A DNA stretch of 61,907 nucleotides. It comes from Microcoleus sp. CSU_2_2 (GTDB lineage Bacteria; Cyanobacteriota; Cyanobacteriia; Cyanobacteriales; Microcoleaceae). The notes beneath the pieces were generated by a model. That model made no database searches. It was not told the DNA's origin and saw only the letters and a program-made list of their open reading frames with translations. Shown one piece after another: positions 9,391 to 57,274 of this stretch. Position numbers and translations under genes: made by a program. How positions within the stretch are numbered: the stretch's first letter is position 1; each line of letters begins with the position of its first letter. The DNA lies in the NCBI GenBank assembly GCA_012035135.1, contig JAAUPI010000002.1, positions 1 to 61,907 of the forward strand. Reading direction: 5' to 3'.

Positions 9391-9575
9391 CTGAGATTTT
9401 AAATTGCCTAGTGTGGGAAAATGGTGAGTATGTCAAAAATCATGTCAAGTCAAACATAACTTTCTGAAAGTACAGTCAAACTTTAGTAAAAACGGAGGAA
9501 AGTTACCTAGACTTCATGAAACCCATCGTAAAAGTCTCGCTTTCATTCATCTCTATAAGTTAAAGTTGATTGTTT

Positions 9576-10085
9576 ATGACACTACATCAACCCTCAATTT
9601 CATCCAACCACCCACAGTTGCTCGCCATGCCTCAAGACTCTCCAGTCCAGACAGTTAACGAGTCTAAAAAAGCATTAAAATACCACCGAGAACTGTCTTG
9701 GAAAATAGCCTCTAGTTTAGCTACTAGTTTTAAATATGCTTGGGCGGGCATAACTTACGCTTTTGAAACTCAGCGAAATTTTCGGATTCATACTGCTATT
9801 GGCACTTTGGCGATCGGACTGGCGCTGTTTTTGCAATTACAGCCTGTGGAAATATCTGTCATCGGCGTCACGATCGGAGTGGTTTTGGCAATGGAATTGT
9901 TGAATACAGCGATCGAATCAGTGGTAGACTTAACGGTCGGACAATCTTACCACGAACTCGCGAAAATTGCTAAAGACTGTGCTGCCGGAGCCGTTATGGT
10001 GTCGGCAATGGCCGCTGCTATCGTTGCTGCTGCCCTGTTGCTCCCTGCTTTGTGGACAGTGATTCAACACGCAATAGCCCATTAG
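9576..10085 (+). CDS. dgkA: Diacylglycerol kinase family protein (DgkA type)
   Basis: This small trimeric-type integral membrane kinase phosphorylates diacylglycerol or undecaprenol with ATP, recycling lipid carriers. The 170-residue protein has a roughly 50-residue hydrophilic N-terminal extension. The core follows with FKYAWAGITYAFETQRNFRIH, three transmembrane helices and the active-site signature MELLNTAIESVVDL. The conserved Glu and Asn residues are present. The ATG at 9576 is used; the Met of MPQDS, 18 codons later, is also possible. It lies between ybeY and trpG on the same strand. Confidence 0.9.
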   Translation: MTLHQPSISSNHPQLLAMPQDSPVQTVNESKKALKYHRELSWKIASSLATSFKYAWAGITYAFETQRNFRIHTAIGTLAIGLALFLQLQPVEISVIGVTIGVVLAMELLNTAIESVVDLTVGQSYHELAKIAKDCAAGAVMVSAMAAAIVAAALLLPALWTVIQHAIAH

Positions 10086-27685: not shown

Positions 27686-28543
27686 GTGAATAGTCAACTA
27701 TCAATTGTCAACTGTCAACTGTTTACCGCGTTGGTCAAAAAATACCAAGAAAAGGGCGATCGGCATTTAGATGAAACCTTGAACAACAGGTGGTTTCAGC
27801 GCTTTTTAGTAACTATTTTTCTAGGCGGACAAGTGCTATTGCGAATCCTCAGTGGCAAAATTGACCGCCGCAAAATCATGGAACATTTAGTAACAGTCGG
27901 GTTAGATTCTTTGCGGGCGGTACTGCTAATAGCTTTTTTTGCAGGCATGATTTTCACCATTCAATCCGCCAGGGAATTGATTCGGTTTGGGGCGGTAAAT
28001 GCGGTAGGAGGTGCTTTTGCCTTGGCATTTTGCCGGGAATTGGCACCAGTTTTAACAGCGGGTGTGGTGGCGGGACAAGTCGGTTCGGCTTTTGCGGCGG
28101 AAATAGGCGAAATGCAGGTGACGGAACAAATAGACGCCCTGTATATGTTGAGAACAAATCCCGTGGATTATTTAGTAGTACCGCGGGTGATAGCTTGCGG
28201 TGTAATGCTGCCAATTTTAACTATTTTTGCGGTGGCGGTGGGGATTGTTGGTGGGCTGTTTGTAGCGGCTATTTTTTATGGTTTGGAACCGTCGGTATTT
28301 TTGGAATCGGTGCGGAATTTTTTGGGGCCTTGGGATTTAGTAACGGTGGCGATTAAGAGTTTTATTTTTGGGTTAATAATTGCGATCGTTGGTTGTGGTT
28401 GGGGGTTGACGACAACGGGTGGAGGAAAAGGGGTTGGACAAGCTGCGACGGCATCGGTGGTTACTTCTTGGGTGTTTATTTTTGTGGCGGATTTCTTTTT
28501 GTCGCTGTTAATGTTTCATGAGTTGGCAATTACTAGAAATTAA
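27686..28543 (+). CDS. MlaE/TGD1-type ABC lipid transporter permease
   Basis: This is an integral membrane permease of the Mla/TGD lipid-trafficking family, with about five hydrophobic segments. The conserved part runs from HLVTVGLDSLRAV through MIFTIQSAREL, FCRELAPVLTAGVVAGQVGS, AEIGEMQVTEQIDALYML and TNPVDYLVVPRV. The protein moves phospholipids between membranes together with an MlaF ATPase and an MlaD protein, which are not in the window. The first 13 residues of the 285 (MNSQLSIVNCQLF) come from CAACTGT tandem repeats, so the true start is probably further in, such as the TTG near 27731. Confidence 0.9.
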   Translation: MNSQLSIVNCQLFTALVKKYQEKGDRHLDETLNNRWFQRFLVTIFLGGQVLLRILSGKIDRRKIMEHLVTVGLDSLRAVLLIAFFAGMIFTIQSARELIRFGAVNAVGGAFALAFCRELAPVLTAGVVAGQVGSAFAAEIGEMQVTEQIDALYMLRTNPVDYLVVPRVIACGVMLPILTIFAVAVGIVGGLFVAAIFYGLEPSVFLESVRNFLGPWDLVTVAIKSFIFGLIIAIVGCGWGLTTTGGGKGVGQAATASVVTSWVFIFVADFFLSLLMFHELAITRN

Positions 28544-33543: not shown

Positions 33544-35670
33544 ATGTTAGACCGAACTCAAACGAACTATATACTAAAAATGGTAGCGGAATCAACTTTG
33601 AAATTGTTGATTGTCGAAGACATGACAGAAGATCTAGAATTAATCGAGATCGCCTTAGAATCGGGTGGAGTAAACTTTACTTTCGACACAGCCCAAACTA
33701 TAACAGAGTGCAGGCAACACCTCGAAACTAGCAAATACGACGCTGTTTTATCAGATTACCGCCTCCCAGGGTTCAACGGTTTGGAGGTGTTGAAATTGAT
33801 GCAGGAATTAGAGCAAGACATACCTTTTATTTTAGTAACCGGAAGTTTGGGAGAAGAAGCAGCAGTAGAGTGCATCAAAGCTGGAATGACCGACTTCGTG
33901 TTGAAAGGTAGGCTGTTCAGGTTGCCAACAGTATTAGCACGATCGCTCCAAGAATATAAAATGCGCCACCAGCAACAAGAAGCGATCGCCCAAATTAAAC
34001 GGCAAGCGACTCGTGAAGCGATCGTCAACCGCATCGTTCAAGCCATGCGCGAAACCCTGGTACTCGATGAAGTGCTGCAAACTACTGCTGACCAACTGCA
34101 CGAAGCTTTGGAAATTAGCCGCTGCGCCATCTTGCAGCCAGATCCAGAAGGCAGAATCACAGTTCGCTATATCAGCAAAGCCACCGCCTGCAGAGAACGG
34201 CTATTCGGACTAAATTGCGAATTTGCCCAGCATTACCAATCCTCCCTCGCGGGCGGAGAAACACTCGCAGTCGCTGATTTATCGACCCTGTGCCCATCCC
34301 TGCAAGCAGCGGCAGAGTTTTTGGAGTTTCGGTCGATCGCGATGGCTCCGCTGCTTTACCAGCAGTCATTCTTGGGAGTAATTAGCCTCTACCAGTGCGA
34401 TCGCGGGCGCTCTTGGAGTGCAGAAGAAATGTCCCTAGTCAAAGCCATAGCCGATCAGTGCGCGATCGCGATCCACCAAGCCGAACTCTACCAGCAAGCC
34501 CAAACCGAACTCGCCGAACGCAAACGCGCCGAAGCAACAGTCCGCGGCATCCAGCAGCAGCTAGCAACAATGGCAGCCAACATTCCCGGTTCAGTCTACC
34601 GCGTCATCCTCCATCCAGACGACACCACCTCCATGCCCTACATCAGTCCGGGCGCGCGGGAAGTGACCGGCATCGATCCAGCAGCAGCAATGGCGCACCC
34701 AGAACTCTTAAACGAAATCATTCATCCCGAAGACAAAAACTATTTTGACAGCAGCATAGTAGAATCAAAAGCCAGTCTCCAGCCCTGCGATCGCCAATAT
34801 CGAATCGTTCTGAGTTCCGGGAAGGTCAAGTGGGTACAAGACATCGCCCGGTTTTCCCGAACCGAAAACGGCGACGTAATCATAGACGGAGTAGCACTCG
34901 ACATTAGCGATCGTAAACTTGCCGAAGAAGCCCTGCGACAAAGCGAACAGCGGTTTCGATCGCTCATCGAAAACGCCACAGACATCACCGTTATTCTCGA
35001 TGCCAAGGGCATCTTTCGCTACATCAGCCCTTCCGTCAAGCGCATATTAGGATACCCGCCGGAACAGGCGATCGGGCGCTACGCTTTAGAGGCAGTTCAC
35101 CCCGACGACTGCGCCCAAATAGCCCAAACTCTCAACAAAGCGATCGAAAACCCCGGAATCAGCCAGCCACCAGTTGAGTACCGAGTCCGCCACCGCAACG
35201 GCAACGAGTGTTTTTTGGAAGCTGTAGCCACCAATTTGCTTGACAATCCGGCAGTCAAGGGAATTATCATCAACTGCCACGACATCACTGGGCGCAAACT
35301 CGTTGAAGAACAACTGCTGCACGATGCTTTACACGACACCCTCACCGGATTGCCCAACCGAGCCTTGTTTGCCGATCGCCTAGAACACGCTTTGAGACTG
35401 GCAAAACGCCGCAAAGACTACTTATTTGCGGTAATATTTCTCGATTTAGATAGATTTAAAGTAATTAACGAATCCCTTGGACTGACGATCGCCGATCAAC
35501 TCCTGGTCGCGATCGCACGGCGTCTGGAAGCCTGTTTGCGTGTCGAGATACAGTTGCCCGCTTCGGAGGCGACGAGTTTGCGATTCTGCTGGAAGATATC
35601 GAGGGAATCCACGAAGCCACCAATATTGTCAACTGCCTCCAGCAGAAAATTACCGCCCCGATCGTTCTAG
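33544..35670 (+). CDS. REC-GAF-PAS-PAS-GGDEF protein, 5' part (frameshifted)
   Basis: This is the first part of a c-di-GMP enzyme: a receiver domain (about 18-135, Asp in AVLSDYRLPGFNG, Lys in DFVLKG), GAF (about 165-320), two PAS domains (about 340-460 and 470-585) and the start of GGDEF (DALHDTLTGLPNRALFADRL, IFLDLDRFKVINESLG). After CLRV near nt 35545 the frame is wrong: the following DNA read in another frame gives DTVARFGGDEFAILLEDIEG. One missing base explains this. The last roughly 40 residues in this frame are therefore artefactual. It lies 131 bp after the histidine kinase. Confidence 0.85.
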   Translation: MLDRTQTNYILKMVAESTLKLLIVEDMTEDLELIEIALESGGVNFTFDTAQTITECRQHLETSKYDAVLSDYRLPGFNGLEVLKLMQELEQDIPFILVTGSLGEEAAVECIKAGMTDFVLKGRLFRLPTVLARSLQEYKMRHQQQEAIAQIKRQATREAIVNRIVQAMRETLVLDEVLQTTADQLHEALEISRCAILQPDPEGRITVRYISKATACRERLFGLNCEFAQHYQSSLAGGETLAVADLSTLCPSLQAAAEFLEFRSIAMAPLLYQQSFLGVISLYQCDRGRSWSAEEMSLVKAIADQCAIAIHQAELYQQAQTELAERKRAEATVRGIQQQLATMAANIPGSVYRVILHPDDTTSMPYISPGAREVTGIDPAAAMAHPELLNEIIHPEDKNYFDSSIVESKASLQPCDRQYRIVLSSGKVKWVQDIARFSRTENGDVIIDGVALDISDRKLAEEALRQSEQRFRSLIENATDITVILDAKGIFRYISPSVKRILGYPPEQAIGRYALEAVHPDDCAQIAQTLNKAIENPGISQPPVEYRVRHRNGNECFLEAVATNLLDNPAVKGIIINCHDITGRKLVEEQLLHDALHDTLTGLPNRALFADRLEHALRLAKRRKDYLFAVIFLDLDRFKVINESLGLTIADQLLVAIARRLEACLRVEIQLPASEATSLRFCWKISRESTKPPILSTASSRKLPPRSF

Positions 35671-35768
35671 ACGGACACGAAGTATTCATCACCGCCAGCA
35701 TCGGCATTGCCCTGAGTTCTGCCGAATACCTGGAACCGACAAACCTGCTGCGAGACGCAGACACAGCA

Positions 35769-36728
35769 ATGTACCGCGCCAAAGAACTCGGCAGAGCCCG
35801 CCATGAAGTTTTCAGCAGTTCCATGCACGCCCACGCTTTGCGACTGTTGCAGTTAGAAAATGACTTGCGGCGGGCGATCGAATCGATTAGAGACCGAATC
35901 AGAGAAGAAGACCCTCCCCAGTATCCCAAATCTCCCTTGCTGCCCCTTTCGCCAGCGCCCCAATTTATCATTCACTACCAGCCGATCGTCTCGATCGCCA
36001 ACGGCAAGATTACAGGTTTTGAAGCCCTAGTGCGCTGGCAGCACCCAGAACGGGGCTTAGTTTCCCCCGGCGAATTCATCCCCGTTGCTGAAGAAACCGG
36101 ACTGATCGTACCCCTCGGCCGCTGGGTGCTGCGCACGGCTTGCCACCAGATCCGCGAGTGGCAGCAGTTATTTCAAAGCACCCCCCCACTGAGTGTCAGC
36201 GTCAACCTTTCTGTCAAACAGTTTTCTCAGCCAGATTTAATTGAATACATCGACCAAGTTCTCGAAGAAACTCAGCTCGACGGCAACAGTTTAAAATTAG
36301 AAATTACAGAAAGCGTACTCATAGAAAATTCCGAATCAGTAACAGCAATGCTGGTCAAACTAAGAACCCGAAACATACACTTGTGCATTGACGATTTCGG
36401 CACTGGATATTCTTCGCTCTCCTACCTGCACCGCTTCCAGACCAATACTTTAAAAATAGACCGCTCTTTTGTGAGCAGGATGGGAATTGAGTACGCGTTC
36501 GGGAAAGGAGGGATTGACCCGACAGAAATTGTCCGATCGATCGTTACTTTGTCGCATAATTTAGGTATGGACGTAGTAGCCGAGGGAGTCGAAGAAGCCT
36601 CACAACTAGCTATTCTCAGGGGGTTAGATTGCGAATATGCCCAGGGATTCTTTTTCTCTAAGCCGGTGGACTCTCAGACAGCAGCAGCGCTGATATCGCA
36701 GCAAGCAGAAAACCATTCGACCTGTTGA
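35769..36728 (+). CDS. GGDEF(C-terminal end)-EAL domain part of the frameshifted protein
   Basis: The same frame is open from about 35547, where it completes GGDEF (FGGDEFAILLEDIEG, VFITASIGIALS, LRDADTAMYRAKELG). Translation could in principle restart at the Met of MYRAKELG. EAL follows at about 70-310 of this piece: FEALVRWQHPERG, LEITESVLIE, IDDFGTGYSSLSYL, KIDRSFV and AEGVEEASQL, with the metal and catalytic residues intact. It would hydrolyse c-di-GMP. A Pro-rich linker (DPPQYPKSPLLPLSPAP) between GGDEF and EAL looks repeat-derived. It is probably one gene with the preceding part, 33544-36728. Confidence 0.85.
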   Translation: MYRAKELGRARHEVFSSSMHAHALRLLQLENDLRRAIESIRDRIREEDPPQYPKSPLLPLSPAPQFIIHYQPIVSIANGKITGFEALVRWQHPERGLVSPGEFIPVAEETGLIVPLGRWVLRTACHQIREWQQLFQSTPPLSVSVNLSVKQFSQPDLIEYIDQVLEETQLDGNSLKLEITESVLIENSESVTAMLVKLRTRNIHLCIDDFGTGYSSLSYLHRFQTNTLKIDRSFVSRMGIEYAFGKGGIDPTEIVRSIVTLSHNLGMDVVAEGVEEASQLAILRGLDCEYAQGFFFSKPVDSQTAAALISQQAENHSTC

Positions 36729-36806: not shown

Positions 36807-38132
36807 ATGCAATTTACAATCAAGTTTCCACCTATTAATAGACTACTGCTAATTTGCTTAGCTATTGTTACTGTACTGTTAATCATATATTCGGGGCAGC
36901 AGAGATCGATCGCCCAAATTCGATCGAACGTCACAGTTGATTTTGGACTGCCAGCAGCCACAACATCCATGAGTGGCCTCCTCCACGGAATCGACACCAC
37001 AAAACCGCCGGATAACTTCATCAAACCCTTGCAACCCAAACTTTGGCGGGTGGGGAGACTCGATATTTACGATCGAGTAATCGCCCATGGAGCCGAGTTT
37101 CAACTGGTAGTCAGCGACTTGTGGGGCTACGGCAGCAATCCCAAAGGCTGGCCATATCAAAACTACCCTGCATGGGAAGCATTCATACGGCAGTTAGCTC
37201 AGCAAAATAAAGGCAAAAAAATTATTTGGGATATTTGGAATGAACCAGATTTAAGAAATCCTTTTTGGAGGGGAAGTAGAGAACAATTTTTTGAAACCTA
37301 CAAAAGAGCTTACAAAATCTTGCGAGAAGAATTGGGGCCGTCAGCAATCATTGGCGGACCTAGTATCAGTCGCTACGACAAAGGATATCTGGCTAATTTT
37401 TTAGATTACTGCAAGGCTAACAAACTGGAGGTAAATTTTCTAGCTTGGCACGAACTGAATGACTCGATGATTTTATTTATTGACGATCACGTAATCGATG
37501 CCAAACGAAATTTTAAACAAAGTGCGGCTTACAGAGAACTCAAGTTGCAAAAAATTTACGTCAACGAGATTGTCGGAGAATTAGCACAGTATCAACCTGG
37601 GGAAATTTTAGGTTATTTATATAACTTGGAATACGCAAAAGCAGACGGTGCTTGCAGGGCTTGTTGGGACACAACAGGAGTCCAAAAAGTTAGCAATTGT
37701 TTCAACAATACGCTGACTGGGATGGTAACTCCCAATAGTTTCGAGCCGAGAGCAGCTTGGTGGACTTACAAAGCTTATGCTGACGGAGTTAATTCGCGAG
37801 TAATGAGTCGATCGGATAACGATCGCGTTGTTGCTTTAGCCAGCAGGTCAAATCCTGAAGGCAAGGCACAGGTGCTTTTGGGTTATTTCGATCGCAACTA
37901 TTCTTCAGCAACAAGCATCAGTTTGAACCTCTATAATTTGCAACAGCTAGGTATCCAAAAAGGTCAAAAAATCACTATCAAATTAGAGAAAATTCCTAAC
38001 CATCAAGAAGTAGCTGTGCAAAAATTGGTTGGCGTCAAGCAAGAGACTTTTCAAGTTGATAGCAACAGCTTGAATTATGTTACTCCTAACATTAACGTCC
38101 ACGAAGGCTACTTGTTGACTGTTAGCAAATGA
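36807..38132 (+). CDS. Exported GH39-like glycoside hydrolase
   Basis: This 441-residue protein has an N-terminal signal anchor (about 12-30) and a clan-A TIM barrel. Glu146 in IIWDIWNEPDLR is the likely acid/base. Glu254 in KIYVNEIVGE is the likely nucleophile. Their spacing of about 108 residues fits GH39 beta-xylosidase-like enzymes. Further motifs are IGGPSISR, FLAWHELND and RAAWWTYKAYADG, and a C-terminal beta-sandwich is likely from about 340. It would act on xylan-like or rhamno/uronic polysaccharide outside the cytoplasm. The substrate is unknown. Confidence 0.75.
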   Translation: MQFTIKFPPINRLLLICLAIVTVLLIIYSGQQRSIAQIRSNVTVDFGLPAATTSMSGLLHGIDTTKPPDNFIKPLQPKLWRVGRLDIYDRVIAHGAEFQLVVSDLWGYGSNPKGWPYQNYPAWEAFIRQLAQQNKGKKIIWDIWNEPDLRNPFWRGSREQFFETYKRAYKILREELGPSAIIGGPSISRYDKGYLANFLDYCKANKLEVNFLAWHELNDSMILFIDDHVIDAKRNFKQSAAYRELKLQKIYVNEIVGELAQYQPGEILGYLYNLEYAKADGACRACWDTTGVQKVSNCFNNTLTGMVTPNSFEPRAAWWTYKAYADGVNSRVMSRSDNDRVVALASRSNPEGKAQVLLGYFDRNYSSATSISLNLYNLQQLGIQKGQKITIKLEKIPNHQEVAVQKLVGVKQETFQVDSNSLNYVTPNINVHEGYLLTVSK

Positions 38133-38145
38133 TCTGATTTTGGTA

Positions 38146-38183
38146 TAGTGCGAGCTGTCGCGAACTCGCGACAGCTCGCACTA
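38146..38183 (+). terminator. Perfect 18-bp hairpin after the GH39-like gene
   Basis: TAGTGCGAGCTGTCGCGA and its exact complement flank a 2-base loop. It lies 14 bp after the stop codon, so it could end the transcript, but no U-tract follows. A related GTGCGAG hairpin is at 40533-40573, so it is also a repeat family member. Confidence 0.5.
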
Positions 38184-38283
38184 CATAATTCCGATGCAAC
38201 CGGATTTGATATCGTGTCCGGTAGCATCGGTTTTATATACTTGTAGGGGTGAAGCATTCGGGCGATCGTCTCTGCCATAGATT

Positions 38284-38435
38284 ATACCAAATCCGGGTTA
38301 CTTACCCCTTTTATAATCTGGTAAATGTAGTAAATGTAGGGTGCGTCGCTACGAACAACTCTCGTTGCTATTGGGAGATCTCATAGCGACGCACCATACC
38401 AATTATAACGGGGATGGGAAACCCGGATTTGGTAT
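38284..38435. mobile_element. MITE-like element, complete copy
   Basis: This 152-bp non-coding element has perfect 16-bp terminal inverted repeats (ATACCAAATCCGGGTT at the left, its complement at the right). Sub-terminal pairing involves ACCCCTTTTATAAT and ATTATAACGGGGAT. A central hairpin has 12-bp arms at 38340-38351 and 38384-38395. A 9-bp unit GTAAATGTA is tandemly repeated inside. Other copies are at 1-121, 40585-40726 (inverse) and 61784-61907 (inverse). No transposase is present in the window. The rest of the gap 38184-38573 holds GGACATGATATGATAT-type motifs. Confidence 0.85.
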
Positions 38436-38573
38436 TACAGGTTTTAGATCCGAATGCTTCACCCAGGCTCTACGCGACCGATACAACCGGACATGATATG
38501 ATATCAACTGTTTGTTAGCGTCAAATATTTGGACTGACGCACCCTACATTCAGAATACCTTTTCCTTCTGTGC

Positions 38574-38867
38574 TTAATTTTTTAATAACTGCTGCACCGA
38601 GTGCAACCACTCCTTAACTGTTTGATTGTCGGCTTCGGGATTGTAGTAACAGCCCAATTCCTCCAGCATAAATGTTTCTAAATCGGGTTCTGCGATCGGC
38701 ATTTCTAGCAGTTTTTTGAGTTCTGCTAATGCACCTTCAATACTTTCGCGTGATTCGCTATTGCGGTAATTTGCCACTACTTCCCTGGGAGTGCTAGCTT
38801 CTAGTGGCCAGTCTTGATGAAAGTAGGAACTGAAAAATTGGGTCAAATGCGGAAATTGAGCATTCAT
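38574..38867 (-). CDS. CdiI-type immunity protein
   Basis: This 97-residue acidic, soluble protein resembles the contact-dependent growth inhibition immunity family with the YFHQDW signature. Visible are PHLTQFFSSYFHQDWPLEA, TPREVVANY, an Ala/Leu/Lys/Glu helix (ALAELKKLLEMPI), LEELGCYYNPEAD and a terminal TVKEWLHSVQQLL helix. Its start codon overlaps the stop codon of the upstream toxin gene (ATGA at 38864-38867), so the two are translated together. Its likely task is to bind and block the RNase A-like domain encoded by that gene. Pairing is inferred from family and overlap. Confidence 0.85.
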   Translation of the reverse strand: MNAQFPHLTQFFSSYFHQDWPLEASTPREVVANYRNSESRESIEGALAELKKLLEMPIAEPDLETFMLEELGCYYNPEADNQTVKEWLHSVQQLLKN

Positions 38868-39394
38868 ACGGGATATGCTGTGAGAATAAAGTATCCTGGA
38901 CGTAATTTGTTGCTCCGCTGAAAGACGATTTTCAAGCTAGATGTTGAAGAGGCTCTGGATGCACGGCGGCGCAGAGTAATACCAACTATTCTATTGGCTT
39001 TATAGTCGATCGTATAACGATTTTCTCTACTTCTAAGCCAGGAAGCCATCGCTCTTTCATTTCTGTTTATAGCCTCTCCAATGGCAGCTTCCGCTATGGA
39101 ACGGTTCGTGAAGGAAGAGGCGGCAGCAATTTGCCGATCAGTTTCTAGCCGCTGTTTTAATTCTGCTTCAGTTTTACCAACGTGTTTTTCGAGAGTATGT
39201 CCTCCTGCTGCTTCGTGAGCATCTAATCCGCCACCTGGTATCCTCAATACTAAAGCTACGGTTGTTGGTTCGGGTGTACTGAAAATCTGCTGTGCAGAAG
39301 CAGGAACTATAGCTGATTGGAATAAGATTATTATTGAGGCAATGCTGCACAGGATACCTAAAAAAAATTTTAAGCGATCGAGTTGAGTTTTCAT
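38864..39394 (-). CDS. Secreted RNase A-like toxin (CdiA-CT RNase A fold)
   Basis: The 176-residue protein has a Sec signal peptide (about 1-34, hydrophobic 10-30, cleavage ASA|QQ) and a short linker. A domain of about 54-176 matches the bacterial CdiA-CT RNase A family: PGGGLDAHEAAGGHTLEKHV (His60, His66, His71), AAASSFTNRSIAEAAIGEAI, MASWLRS and the C-terminal FILTAYPV (Thr172, Tyr174). In this family conserved His, Arg, Thr and Tyr residues cleave RNA. Unlike known CdiA, Rhs or LXG effectors, nothing but a signal peptide precedes the toxin domain. It overlaps the immunity gene by four bases. A 276-bp A+T-rich region lies upstream. Confidence 0.85.
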   Translation of the reverse strand: MKTQLDRLKFFLGILCSIASIIILFQSAIVPASAQQIFSTPEPTTVALVLRIPGGGLDAHEAAGGHTLEKHVGKTEAELKQRLETDRQIAAASSFTNRSIAEAAIGEAINRNERAMASWLRSRENRYTIDYKANRIVGITLRRRASRASSTSSLKIVFQRSNKLRPGYFILTAYPV

Positions 39395-39670: not shown

Positions 39671-40447
39671 ATGCAAGTAGTTATCCTAGCTGGCGGTCTC
39701 GGTACTCGTCTCAGAGAAGAAACAGAATTTCGCCCCAAACCCTTAGTTGATGTAGGTGGGCGTCCGATTCTTTGGCATATCATGAAGATATATGCTCACT
39801 ACGGATTCCAAAACTTTGTTGTGTGCTTGGGCTATCGCGGAACTATGATTAAAGAATATTTTCTCAATTACGAAGCCATGAACAATGACTTCACTATCTG
39901 CCTGGGACGGAAAAATACCATTCTTTATCAAGAGGAACATCGAGAACAAGATTTTAACGTGACGCTGGCGGAAACAGGTGCCGATAGCATGACTGGAGGG
40001 CGGGTAAAGCGGATCGAAAAATACATCGATCGAGATAACTTCATGGTGACATACGGCGATGGAGTAGCCGATGTAAATATTGACGAATTACTCGCTTTTC
40101 ACAAAGCTCACGGTAAACTGGCAACTGTTACTACCTTTCGCCCTATTTCCCGCTTTGGAATTTTAGATGTAGACAATCAAGGTTGCGTACTCGAATTTTC
40201 TGAAAAACCTCAAATAGATGGTTGGATTAGTGTTGGCTATATGATCTTTAACCGTCGGATATTTGACTATTTGGATGGAGATGACTGTATCTTAGAACAG
40301 GAACCGATGCAGCGTTTGGCGGCAGATGGACAGTTGATGGCTTATCGGCACAATGGCTTCTTTTTTGCAATGGATACTTTTCGAGAATACAAGTATTTAA
40401 ACGAGCTTTGGGATCGGGGAGAAGCTCCTTGGAAAGTGTGGGAATAG
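39671..40447 (+). CDS. rfbF: Glucose-1-phosphate cytidylyltransferase RfbF
   Basis: RfbF makes CDP-glucose from CTP and glucose-1-phosphate, the first step to CDP-linked dideoxy or branched sugars. The 258-residue protein has the nucleotidyl-transferase signature MQVVILAGGLGTRLREETEF with RPKPLVDVGGRPILWHIM. Family motifs FVVCLGYRGTMIKEYFLNYE, VTYGDGVADV and FFFAMDTFREYKYLNELW are present. The length is typical. It is an orphan here: rfbG (CDP-glucose 4,6-dehydratase) does not follow before the window's next, oppositely oriented gene. Confidence 0.95.
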   Translation: MQVVILAGGLGTRLREETEFRPKPLVDVGGRPILWHIMKIYAHYGFQNFVVCLGYRGTMIKEYFLNYEAMNNDFTICLGRKNTILYQEEHREQDFNVTLAETGADSMTGGRVKRIEKYIDRDNFMVTYGDGVADVNIDELLAFHKAHGKLATVTTFRPISRFGILDVDNQGCVLEFSEKPQIDGWISVGYMIFNRRIFDYLDGDDCILEQEPMQRLAADGQLMAYRHNGFFFAMDTFREYKYLNELWDRGEAPWKVWE

Positions 40448-56199: not shown

Positions 56200-56396
56200 T
56201 TGACAGCTTGCCCGCTCGCCGGCCGTTGGGTTGACAGCTTGCCCGCTCGCTCTTGGGCGGGCACGGGGACACCGCCCCTACCCCTACATTTATCGAATGG
56301 CTTGAGATTCTTTTTAGGAGATATCTAATGACTAATGACTAATGACCAATGACTAATGACCAATGACTAAGGACTAAGGACTAATGACTAATGACT
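56200..56396. repeat. Short tandem repeats upstream of and into the Opp/Dpp ATPase gene
   Basis: TTGACAGCTTGCCCGCTCGC occurs twice (56202-56250) and is related to the 30-bp repeat at 23551. GCGGGCACGGGGACACCGCC follows, related to the GC-rich repeats near 22830. From 56325 to 56396 there are about ten 7-bp units (AATGACT, AATGACC, AGGACTA). The ATG of the next gene lies in this last array. Confidence 0.85.
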
Positions 56397-57274
56397 ATTC
56401 TTTGTTTTCCGTCGAAAATCTGCGAGTAGCTTATCCCCAGCGGCGAGGCCAATCCGGTTGGGCGGTTGATGATGTTTCCCTGACGCTGCAACCGGGCGAA
56501 AAGCTGGGATTAGTAGGGGAGTCGGGATGCGGCAAGTCAACTCTGGGAAGGGCTGCGATGCGGTTGCTGCCTGAATCTACGCAAATTGAAGGGCGAGTTG
56601 GCTTTGCTGGAGAATCTGTGTTTGAGATGAATGCGTCGCGACTCAGACGGTTTCGCGGGGAAGCTGTGGCATTGATTTTTCAAGATCCGATGACTCGTCT
56701 CGATCCTTTGATGACTATCGGCGAACATTGTATTGAAACTTTGCAAGCTCATAGACCGAATTTGGATCGCAAGCAAGCTAAGAAAAGGGCGATCGAAATT
56801 CTGGAAGCTGTGAAAATTCCCGCGTCTCGCTGGTCGCAATTTCCTCACGAATTTAGTGGTGGAATGCGGCAAAGAGTGGCAATTGCTTTGGCTCTTTTGC
56901 TCGATCCTAAATTAATTGTTGCCGACGAACCGACTACCAGTTTGGATGTCACTGTAGCCGCTCAGATTTTGCAGGAATTAACGCGACTTTGTGCGGAACG
57001 GGGAACGGCTATTTTGTTCATTTCTCACGATTTGGCGATGGTGGCTGAGTATTGCGATCGCATTGCAGTGATGTACGGTGGCAAAGTAGTAGAAACTGGG
57101 CCTGTGCAGAATGTTTTTCAACAACCGCAGCATGAATATACTCGATCGCTCTTAAAAGCAGCTTTGCATATTCAGAAGGAAGAAGGAAGAAGAACCCCCC
57201 CCTACCCCCCCCCAAGGGGGAAAGAAGGAAGAAGGAAGAGAACAAACCGATTTTCAGATTCAGTCTCAGTCTAA
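56384..57274 (+). CDS. Opp/Dpp-type ABC transporter ATPase, first half
   Basis: This peptide/nickel-family ATP-binding subunit of 296 residues has Walker A VGESGCGKSTLGR (about 46-58), the Q-loop IFQDPMTRLDP, signature FSGGMRQRVAIALALL, Walker B LIVADEPTTSLD and switch His in FISHDLAM. The conserved protein ends near HIQKEE; the last 30 residues come from a GGAAGAA/poly-C repeat (57178-57240). In that repeat the frame is lost relative to the second ATPase, with which it was probably fused. The first seven residues derive from AATGACT repeats. There is no permease gene nearby. Confidence 0.85.
   Translation: MTNDYSLFSVENLRVAYPQRRGQSGWAVDDVSLTLQPGEKLGLVGESGCGKSTLGRAAMRLLPESTQIEGRVGFAGESVFEMNASRLRRFRGEAVALIFQDPMTRLDPLMTIGEHCIETLQAHRPNLDRKQAKKRAIEILEAVKIPASRWSQFPHEFSGGMRQRVAIALALLLDPKLIVADEPTTSLDVTVAAQILQELTRLCAERGTAILFISHDLAMVAEYCDRIAVMYGGKVVETGPVQNVFQQPQHEYTRSLLKAALHIQKEEGRRTPPYPPPRGKEGRRKRTNRFSDSVSV

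Follow-up and report, generated by a model that had tools for sequence, protein, structure and literature searches.

A small RNase A-like toxin with a signal-peptide-like leader is paired with a CdiI_2 immunity protein across the cyanobacterial genus Microcoleus

Nearly all genomes of the genus Microcoleus in our sample carry a pair of overlapping genes in which an RNase A-like toxin domain stands alone behind an N-terminus resembling a Sec signal peptide and is followed by an immunity gene of the CdiI_2 family. On balance we favour the reading that the pair would be a secreted ribonuclease together with its own cytosolic inhibitor, its export, activity, binding and target being predicted from the sequences. 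The pair lies in a stretch of 61,907 nucleotides of Microcoleus sp. CSU_2_2 (contig JAAUPI010000002.1), called the window below; the genus is known for mats and soil crusts.

Results

An RNase A-like toxin and a CdiI_2 immunity protein encoded by overlapping genes

The original prediction, made from the letters of the window alone, described an RNase A-like toxin of the CdiA-CT type with an overlapping CdiI-type immunity gene. Both open reading frames are present, on the minus strand and sharing an ATGA (Table 1), and so are the sequence motifs quoted for them. Profile searches bore out both family assignments: in Pfam the toxin matched PF18431 (RNAse_A_bac) with an E-value of 8.8e-32 over residues 65-175 and the full length of the profile (1-113 of 113), and the immunity protein matched PF18593 (CdiI_2) with an E-value of 6.8e-27 over residues 4-95 (profile 1-91 of 91). 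The scores of 110.7 and 94.5 bits are far above the curated cut-offs of 27 bits and 26.7 bits, respectively, and well beyond chance; in a control set of 14 well-known genomes, PF18431 was found in none and PF18593 in one, that of Bacillus subtilis. The nearest solved structures by sequence are chain B of entry 5E3E for the toxin and chain A for the immunity protein, so that each is best matched by a chain of one and the same entry.

Table 1. Features of the toxin-immunity locus and its flanks in the window.
Feature	Position	Strand	Basis
Flank marker, glycosyl hydrolase family 39-like gene (GH39; outside the system)	36807..38132	+	PF01229
CdiI_2 immunity gene, 97 aa, without hydrophobic leader	38574..38867	-	PF18593, 94.5 bits; 5E3E_A, E 3.8e-8
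4-nt overlap ATGA, toxin stop/immunity start	38864..38867	-	ORF coordinates
Stand-alone RNase A-like toxin gene, 176 aa	38864..39394	-	PF18431, 110.7 bits; 5E3E_B, E 2.1e-21
RNAse_A_bac domain, residues 65-175; catalytic H71, R82, T172, Y174 (by alignment)	38870..39202	-	PF18431 profile, 5E3E_B alignment
Pre-toxin motif PGGGLDAHEAAGGH, residues 53-66	39197..39238	-	Alignment; common to the tip of the G413 3766-aa frame, the G183 and G414 cassettes and the G1050 toxin
Signal-peptide-like N-terminus, residues 1-34 (MKTQLDRLKFF...VPASA↓QQ)	39293..39394	-	Charge, hydropathy, -3/-1 rule
Flank marker, nucleotidyltransferase, rfbF-like (outside the system)	39671..40447	+	PF00483

The active-site set of CdiA-CT(YKris) is given in a review as H175/R186/T276/Y278 (PMC9086364), and in the alignment with 5E3E_B these residues correspond with identical spacing to H71, R82, T172 and Y174 of the toxin, so that the expected His/Arg/Thr/Tyr set is complete. 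All four are unchanged in the 27 aligned toxins of the genus and in a truncated 28th, G005, which is cut by a contig end and was left out of the alignment. The domain is predicted to have the metal-independent RNase activity of its family and, given the strong sequence match to 5E3E_B, the RNase A fold. The toxin domains of the genus are 60-99% identical to each other and, from residue 35 onward, the full-length toxins are cysteine-free with a pI of 9.65-10.61, whereas the immunity proteins of the 28 members have a pI of 4.05-4.6 and a top 15-residue hydropathy of 1.31; toxin and inhibitor are thus of opposite charge, the one basic and the other acidic. The immunity gene overlaps the toxin stop by four nucleotides (-4) in all 27 contiguous pairs of the genus, which is consistent with coupled translation.

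A signal-peptide-like leader

The complete open frame around the toxin runs to 182 codons and holds no delivery part, in agreement with the stand-alone leader-plus-domain architecture that had been proposed. Judged by charge, hydropathy and the -3/-1 rule rather than by a signal-peptide predictor, the first 34 residues resemble the predicted Sec signal peptide, the ASA↓QQ site falling at residues 32-34. Across the 27 full-length genus toxins the net charge over the first ten residues is +1 to +4, the hydrophobic core starts at residue 11 with a 15-residue mean hydropathy of 2.47-3.02, and residues 32-34 carry small -3/-1 residues, in three members (G006, G007 and G011) as the weak motif VGG. 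A short linker separates leader and RNase A-like domain. The sole cysteine of the window toxin, C16, sits after a leucine within the hydrophobic stretch and is missing from G009, G014, G015, G016 and G021. A lipoprotein form was considered and rejected, as the leader has no lipobox-like cysteine and the lipoprotein family NF041883 scores only 72.2 bits against a cut-off of 200.

Distribution within and outside the genus

The toxin was found in 28 of the 29 genomes of the genus, as one copy in each, and in all 25 of those with a completeness of 90% or more and a contamination of 5% or less; the immunity family is present in the same 28 genomes, also as a single copy. In the remaining genome, G022, a contig ends inside an immunity-like frame next to GH39; the 21 residues left resemble the C-terminal part of the immunity protein (57% identity, E 1e-4), and the pair is probably present in this genome as well. 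Beyond the genus the domain is rare. Among the other genera of the same taxonomic family, toxin and immunity family occur in 3 and 4 of 32 genomes, respectively, and in a sample of the phylum outside the genus in 6 (five over the family cut-off) and 4 of 379; the toxin occurs in 9 of 398 genomes (eight over the cut-off) of a phylum sample centred on Paraburkholderia and in 3 of 398 (two over) of one centred on Clostridium, the centre genome being included in both. Fisher tests of the genus against the rest gave p values of 7e-13 and 7e-12, which are descriptive only since species are non-independent.

A survey of cyanobacteria for the signal-peptide architecture, which had been suggested as a check, recovered it in all 27 full-length members of the genus and, outside it, in a distant cyanobacterium, G382, as a leader-plus-domain protein of 167 aa. 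No CdiI_2 match was found anywhere in the G382 genome, so the architecture does not strictly need this inhibitor; the leader form may have arisen on more than one occasion, with this inhibitor not obligatory. Further cyanobacterial copies lie in larger frames in G127, G153 and G219 and as a fragment in G237.

Several of these loci have features of their own. The G382 protein (L082, 8590-9093) belongs to a genome of another family, and a 95-aa ORF 3' of it (9448-9735), without a Pfam match, could be a different inhibitor. The CdiI_2 gene at 1103-1417 of L088 is possibly an orphan immunity gene; its genome, G408, belongs to the Microcoleus family, is 55% complete and yielded no RNase A-like toxin. 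The Paraburkholderia genome G436 holds six RNase A-like copies (L109, L111, L112 and L121-L123), five of them in open frames of 284-337 aa that share an N-terminal region and one broken, and these form a separate small-effector type. The copies at L043, L044, L046 and L047 are cyanobacterial and lie within larger frames or loci; some of them have a leader region reminiscent of the DUF4157-type leader found on cargo of extracellular contractile injection systems.

Neighbourhood and upstream regions

The predicted lack of a nearby delivery module held: a Pfam scan recognised no toxin-delivery family among the 20 of 44 window ORFs (at least 150 aa) that it covered. Nearest to a delivery role among these are an ABC ATPase (56384-57274) and an MlaE permease (27686-28543), the only transport proteins of the kind, and the nearest neighbours of the pair are the GH39-like hydrolase, the nucleotidyltransferase, for which we take rfbF to be the gene name, and sensor or cyclic-di-GMP proteins. 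Within 33544-36728(+) a GGDEF-EAL gene looks split, by a frame change or an assembly error: a receiver-GAF-PAS-GGDEF frame stops in the middle of its GGDEF domain (profile 1-71 of 161), and a separate ORF from 35769, behind the broken frame, carries the EAL domain. The 440 bases between GH39 and the immunity gene (38133-38573) contain five inverted repeats, including one perfect repeat of 18 nt with a 2-nt loop and another of 34 nt that is 82% complementary, and resemble a cluster of small palindromic elements.

Comparison of 27 upstream regions revealed no conserved element pointing to a regulator. Among the upstream sequences listed, a TATACT-like stretch precedes most starts and is absent from the window, G009 and G021; NtcA-like matches in 10 of the 27 (four near -106 and six at -32 to -41) and loose Pho-like matches in 5 of the 27, at four different places, have no value as proof. 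Sigma-70-like sites are not enriched (4 against a shuffle mean of 3.8), terminator-like sites number 4 against 1.2 in shuffles, and none of the terminator-like sites lies immediately 3' of the immunity gene on its strand.

A present-day mobile carrier was also considered and rejected, because phage records gave no match and the eight plasmid records matched are all from Pantoea, sharing 31-34% identity across 65-68% of the query. Among the PHROG profiles, ones of unknown function match the toxin with 96.8 bits and the immunity protein with 20.8 bits, which means that some phage-related protein carries the toxin domain. No PADLOC family matched.

Locus order, selection and inheritance

The order GH39 - immunity/toxin - rfbF is found in the window and in 23 other genomes of the genus (24 in total); the GH39-like gene is on the same stretch as the pair, and the rfbF-like gene on the same stretch as the toxin, each in 24 of the 27 other genomes. 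The G005 contig breaks off inside the toxin, on the side of GH39. G008 has toxin and rfbF together, with the immunity gene and GH39 on other contigs, and in G009 and G021 the pair occupies another neighbourhood that is identical in both. G008 (L074, L075 and L091) is the only member with toxin and immunity gene on different contigs, both genes still being open, and the ORFs on both sides of its toxin are, judging by motif, presumably TnpB-like.

The toxin has a median dN/dS of 0.32 (leader 0.32, domain 0.34) and the immunity gene one of 0.26, compared with 0.095 and 0.116 in the flanking genes; pairs were kept at a dS of 0.05-1.5 (for whole genes, 377 of 378 for the toxin, 376 of 378 for immunity, 297 of 300 for rfbF and 406 of 406 for GH39). 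The values of the pair are about three times those of its neighbours, and relaxed constraint is also possible. The dN distances correlate between toxin and immunity gene (r 0.72) and between toxin and GH39 (r 0.68), with a range of r 0.57-0.72 when the neighbours are included, and none of 1000 permutations was as high.

Gene trees share many recurring groups, with clear exceptions. The window toxin groups with G009 and G021 (100/99), and its rfbF and GH39 join the G002 clade, which the toxin data reject (AU p 0.008). The toxin of G020 groups with the G002/G017 clade (100/97), a grouping that its immunity gene and GH39 reject (AU p 0.0006 and 0.0001, respectively); the groups put to the AU test, for the window as for G020, were named post hoc, after the trees had been seen. 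The locus has been inherited mainly vertically, with likely exchange of toxin alleles inside the genus. In G020 the immunity allele apparently did not travel with the toxin, a hint that the inhibitors may guard against alleles beyond their own.

Possible origin of the small leader-bearing form

In other genera of the same family, the domain occurs in different settings. In G413 it forms the tip of a frame of 3766 aa that also has a subtilase domain, and a second, broken copy of the RNase A-like domain is present in the genome; in G183 and G414 it is found as leaderless cassettes of 133-134 aa; by ORF coordinates, the G413 tip and both cassettes are each followed by a CdiI_2 gene with a 4-nt overlap. 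Despite coming from different genera, the tip in G413 and the cassette in G183 hardly differ in sequence, as would be expected of mobile cassettes. The motif PGGGLxxHExxGGH precedes the domain in the genus proteins, the giant tip of G413, the cassettes and the toxin of G1050, and within it G54-L57, H60, E61 and A63-H66 are invariant in 27 of 27 genus toxins. This common pre-toxin motif suggests that the small protein came from a toxin tip and not the reverse.

To trace the locus itself, GH39 was searched for in four members of the genus and 24 further genomes of the family, 28 out of 61. The GH39 closest to that of the window is in the genus of G155 and G414 (67% against 51-54% elsewhere in the family), where it lies near rfbF; there the two are separated by another gene and the toxin pair is absent. 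A domain tree of 28 genus sequences and 13 others, from which the second G413 copy, both G153 copies, G237, five of the six G436 copies, G435 (Clostridium), G757, G659, G630 and G1149 were left out, includes distant members, has very long branches and did not settle the origin; it puts the stand-alone G382 form inside the genus, on a branch 4.5 long, and this placement is not trusted.

Comparison with known systems

The pair was compared with the systems that it most resembles. It shares with CdiA-CT/CdiI of Yersinia kristensenii (5E3E) the match of both chains, the same four catalytic positions and a cognate immunity protein, but the Yersinia toxin is the tip of a large CdiA whereas the Microcoleus domain is alone behind its signal-peptide-like leader. 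Of the features of contact-dependent inhibition (CDI) and polymorphic toxin systems, the immunity gene adjacent to and downstream of the toxin is found here in every contiguous pair of the genus. The large delivery protein is not, the frame being only 182 codons long; nor, in the ORFs scanned, are delivery genes such as CdiB, nor is a varying toxin type, the same toxin and immunity families recurring in 28 of 29 genus genomes. The pair belongs to both protein families by profile, yet neither its architecture nor the neighbourhood scanned nor its degree of polymorphism is that of a CDI or polymorphic toxin system. Stand-alone toxin-immunity cassettes of polymorphic toxin systems are known (PMC3482391) and likewise consist of a toxin domain and an adjacent immunity gene with no delivery body, but those of G183 and G414 are leaderless and patchy, whereas in Microcoleus the toxin carries a leader and the pair is fixed across the genus.

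In its predicted wiring the pair would resemble barnase and barstar of Bacillus amyloliquefaciens, a small secreted RNase with a small intracellular inhibitor (PMC8837141): leader features are on the toxin gene only, predicting its export, and the inhibitor has none. The families are unrelated, barnase having the BECR fold and barstar belonging to PF01337 (PMC3482391), whereas Pfam gives only PF18431 and PF18593 above cut-off here. Ribocin RbcN of Pseudomonas aeruginosa (PA14_21120) is described as an RNase A-fold protein that stands alone and carries a signal peptide, whose activity needs His, Thr and Tyr, which targets eukaryotic ribosomes and which is highly divergent from CdiA-CT(YKris), with 15% identity (PMC13189344). 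The likeness, by description rather than by sequence comparison, is in the signal peptide and the stand-alone RNase A fold, both predicted for the Microcoleus toxin; the eukaryotic target is a difference, as is the inhibitor gene here, the available text on Ribocin mentioning no partner. The NCBIfam entry NF041883, RNase_A_lipo ('RNase A-like domain-containing lipoprotein'), also covers stand-alone RNase A-like domain proteins, and the domain matches it below the cut-off as given above.

The minimal form had been called undescribed, and this holds in part. Searches of open-licence literature turned up no account of a signal-peptide RNase A paired with CdiI_2, nor of such a pair being fixed in a genus of cyanobacteria, and nothing relevant on Microcoleus exoproteomes or cyanobacterial secreted RNases; NF041883, Ribocin and barnase-barstar nevertheless precede it partly. 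The original observation is thus confirmed and its interpretation partly supported.

Discussion

Under the reading that we favour, a secreted ribonuclease with a cytosolic inhibitor, the RNase would be exported by Sec and fold in the periplasm or outside, there being no cysteine after the leader. Stray RNase that folded early in the cytosol would be caught by the acidic inhibitor, which coupled translation would yield at a matching level and which would cover the active site, as CdiI(YKris) does. Once released, the basic RNase would act beyond its maker, most likely on RNA of other or lysed cells of the mat. A toxin tip and its immunity gene may have shed the large delivery protein, acquired a signal peptide and become fixed near the base of the genus, giving a wiring that we liken to barnase-barstar, rebuilt from polymorphic-toxin parts. 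We propose this broader history tentatively and with some reserve: a CDI tip that escaped its delivery protein may have become a core, secreted, inhibitor-guarded RNase of the whole genus and a second, independent barnase-barstar arrangement, in the RNase A superfamily. Simple barnase-barstar pairs have been discussed as forerunners of polymorphic toxins, the simple pair coming first and the tip later (PMC3482391); the change from weapon to fixed enzyme would run in the opposite direction.

Antagonism could still be what was selected. As a special case of the secreted RNase, the toxin would be a diffusible or contact-released antibacterial weapon that leaves through vesicles, an outer-membrane exporter or lysis of filament cells and enters competitors, with immunity guarding against own and incoming toxin. 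The family is antibacterial in CDI (PMC9086364), and retention of the immunity gene in all 28 toxin-bearing genomes of the genus is what one would expect if sister cells are hit. We nevertheless lean away from this possibility, as Pfam recognised no receptor-binding or translocation region in the 176 aa and no delivery genes among the neighbouring ORFs scanned, and the G020 toxin allele was seemingly exchanged without its immunity allele. The fixed, non-polymorphic toxin type also speaks against strain recognition inside the genus, where kin and non-kin could be told apart only if alleles differ in specificity, which the 60-99% identity leaves possible; with toxin type and inhibitor family invariant in each of the 28 toxin-bearing genomes, the kin recognition raised in the original prediction loses ground, less firmly than the orphan cassette raised beside it. 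That the pair is such a cassette, a decayed remnant of a polymorphic toxin locus, is very improbable: leaderless cassettes exist in G183 and G414 and a broken copy in G413, but throughout the genus the pair is single-copy and mostly syntenic, with an intact catalytic set, the overlap and a dN/dS well under 1.

Other roles for the ribonuclease were weighed as well. Degradation of extracellular RNA of the mat, for phosphorus and nucleotides or to remodel the matrix, with an inhibitor that only stops self-poisoning during export, would fit a locus that is fixed, single-copy, non-polymorphic and under modest constraint, and Bacillus is known to make small RNases that act outside the cell (PMC8837141). 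We hold it to be rather unlikely, given that the adjoining genes encode a hydrolase, a nucleotidyltransferase and signalling proteins rather than phosphorus functions and that no conserved phosphate-box-like element is found upstream, the loose matches being scattered. A defence against grazers such as nematodes and amoebae, whose ribosomes the RNase would hit, is suggested by Ribocin, which has the same architecture of signal peptide and stand-alone RNase A fold (PMC13189344); but Ribocin does not cleave bacterial H69, and the accessible report mentions no inhibitor gene (PMC13189344), whereas the gene kept in all 28 toxin-bearing genomes suggests a danger to bacterial RNA, so that this role seems improbable. 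About as improbable, or slightly more so, is a cell-internal toxin-antitoxin or programmed-death module, for example for filament breakage, in which the leader would be a vestige or a membrane anchor. The tight gene overlap and the constant pairing through the genus would suit such a module, but the leader is present in all 27 full-length members at a dN/dS like that of the remaining gene, and the toxin-first order is that of polymorphic toxin systems.

Taken together, the pair has a simple leader in place of a secretion partner, and its toxin and immunity gene are fixed in a genus and not strain-variable. If the history proposed here is true, a strain-level weapon would have been domesticated into a stable secreted enzyme, and the pair, if confirmed, would be a small, testable system for the role of a free RNase in the cyanobacterial mat.
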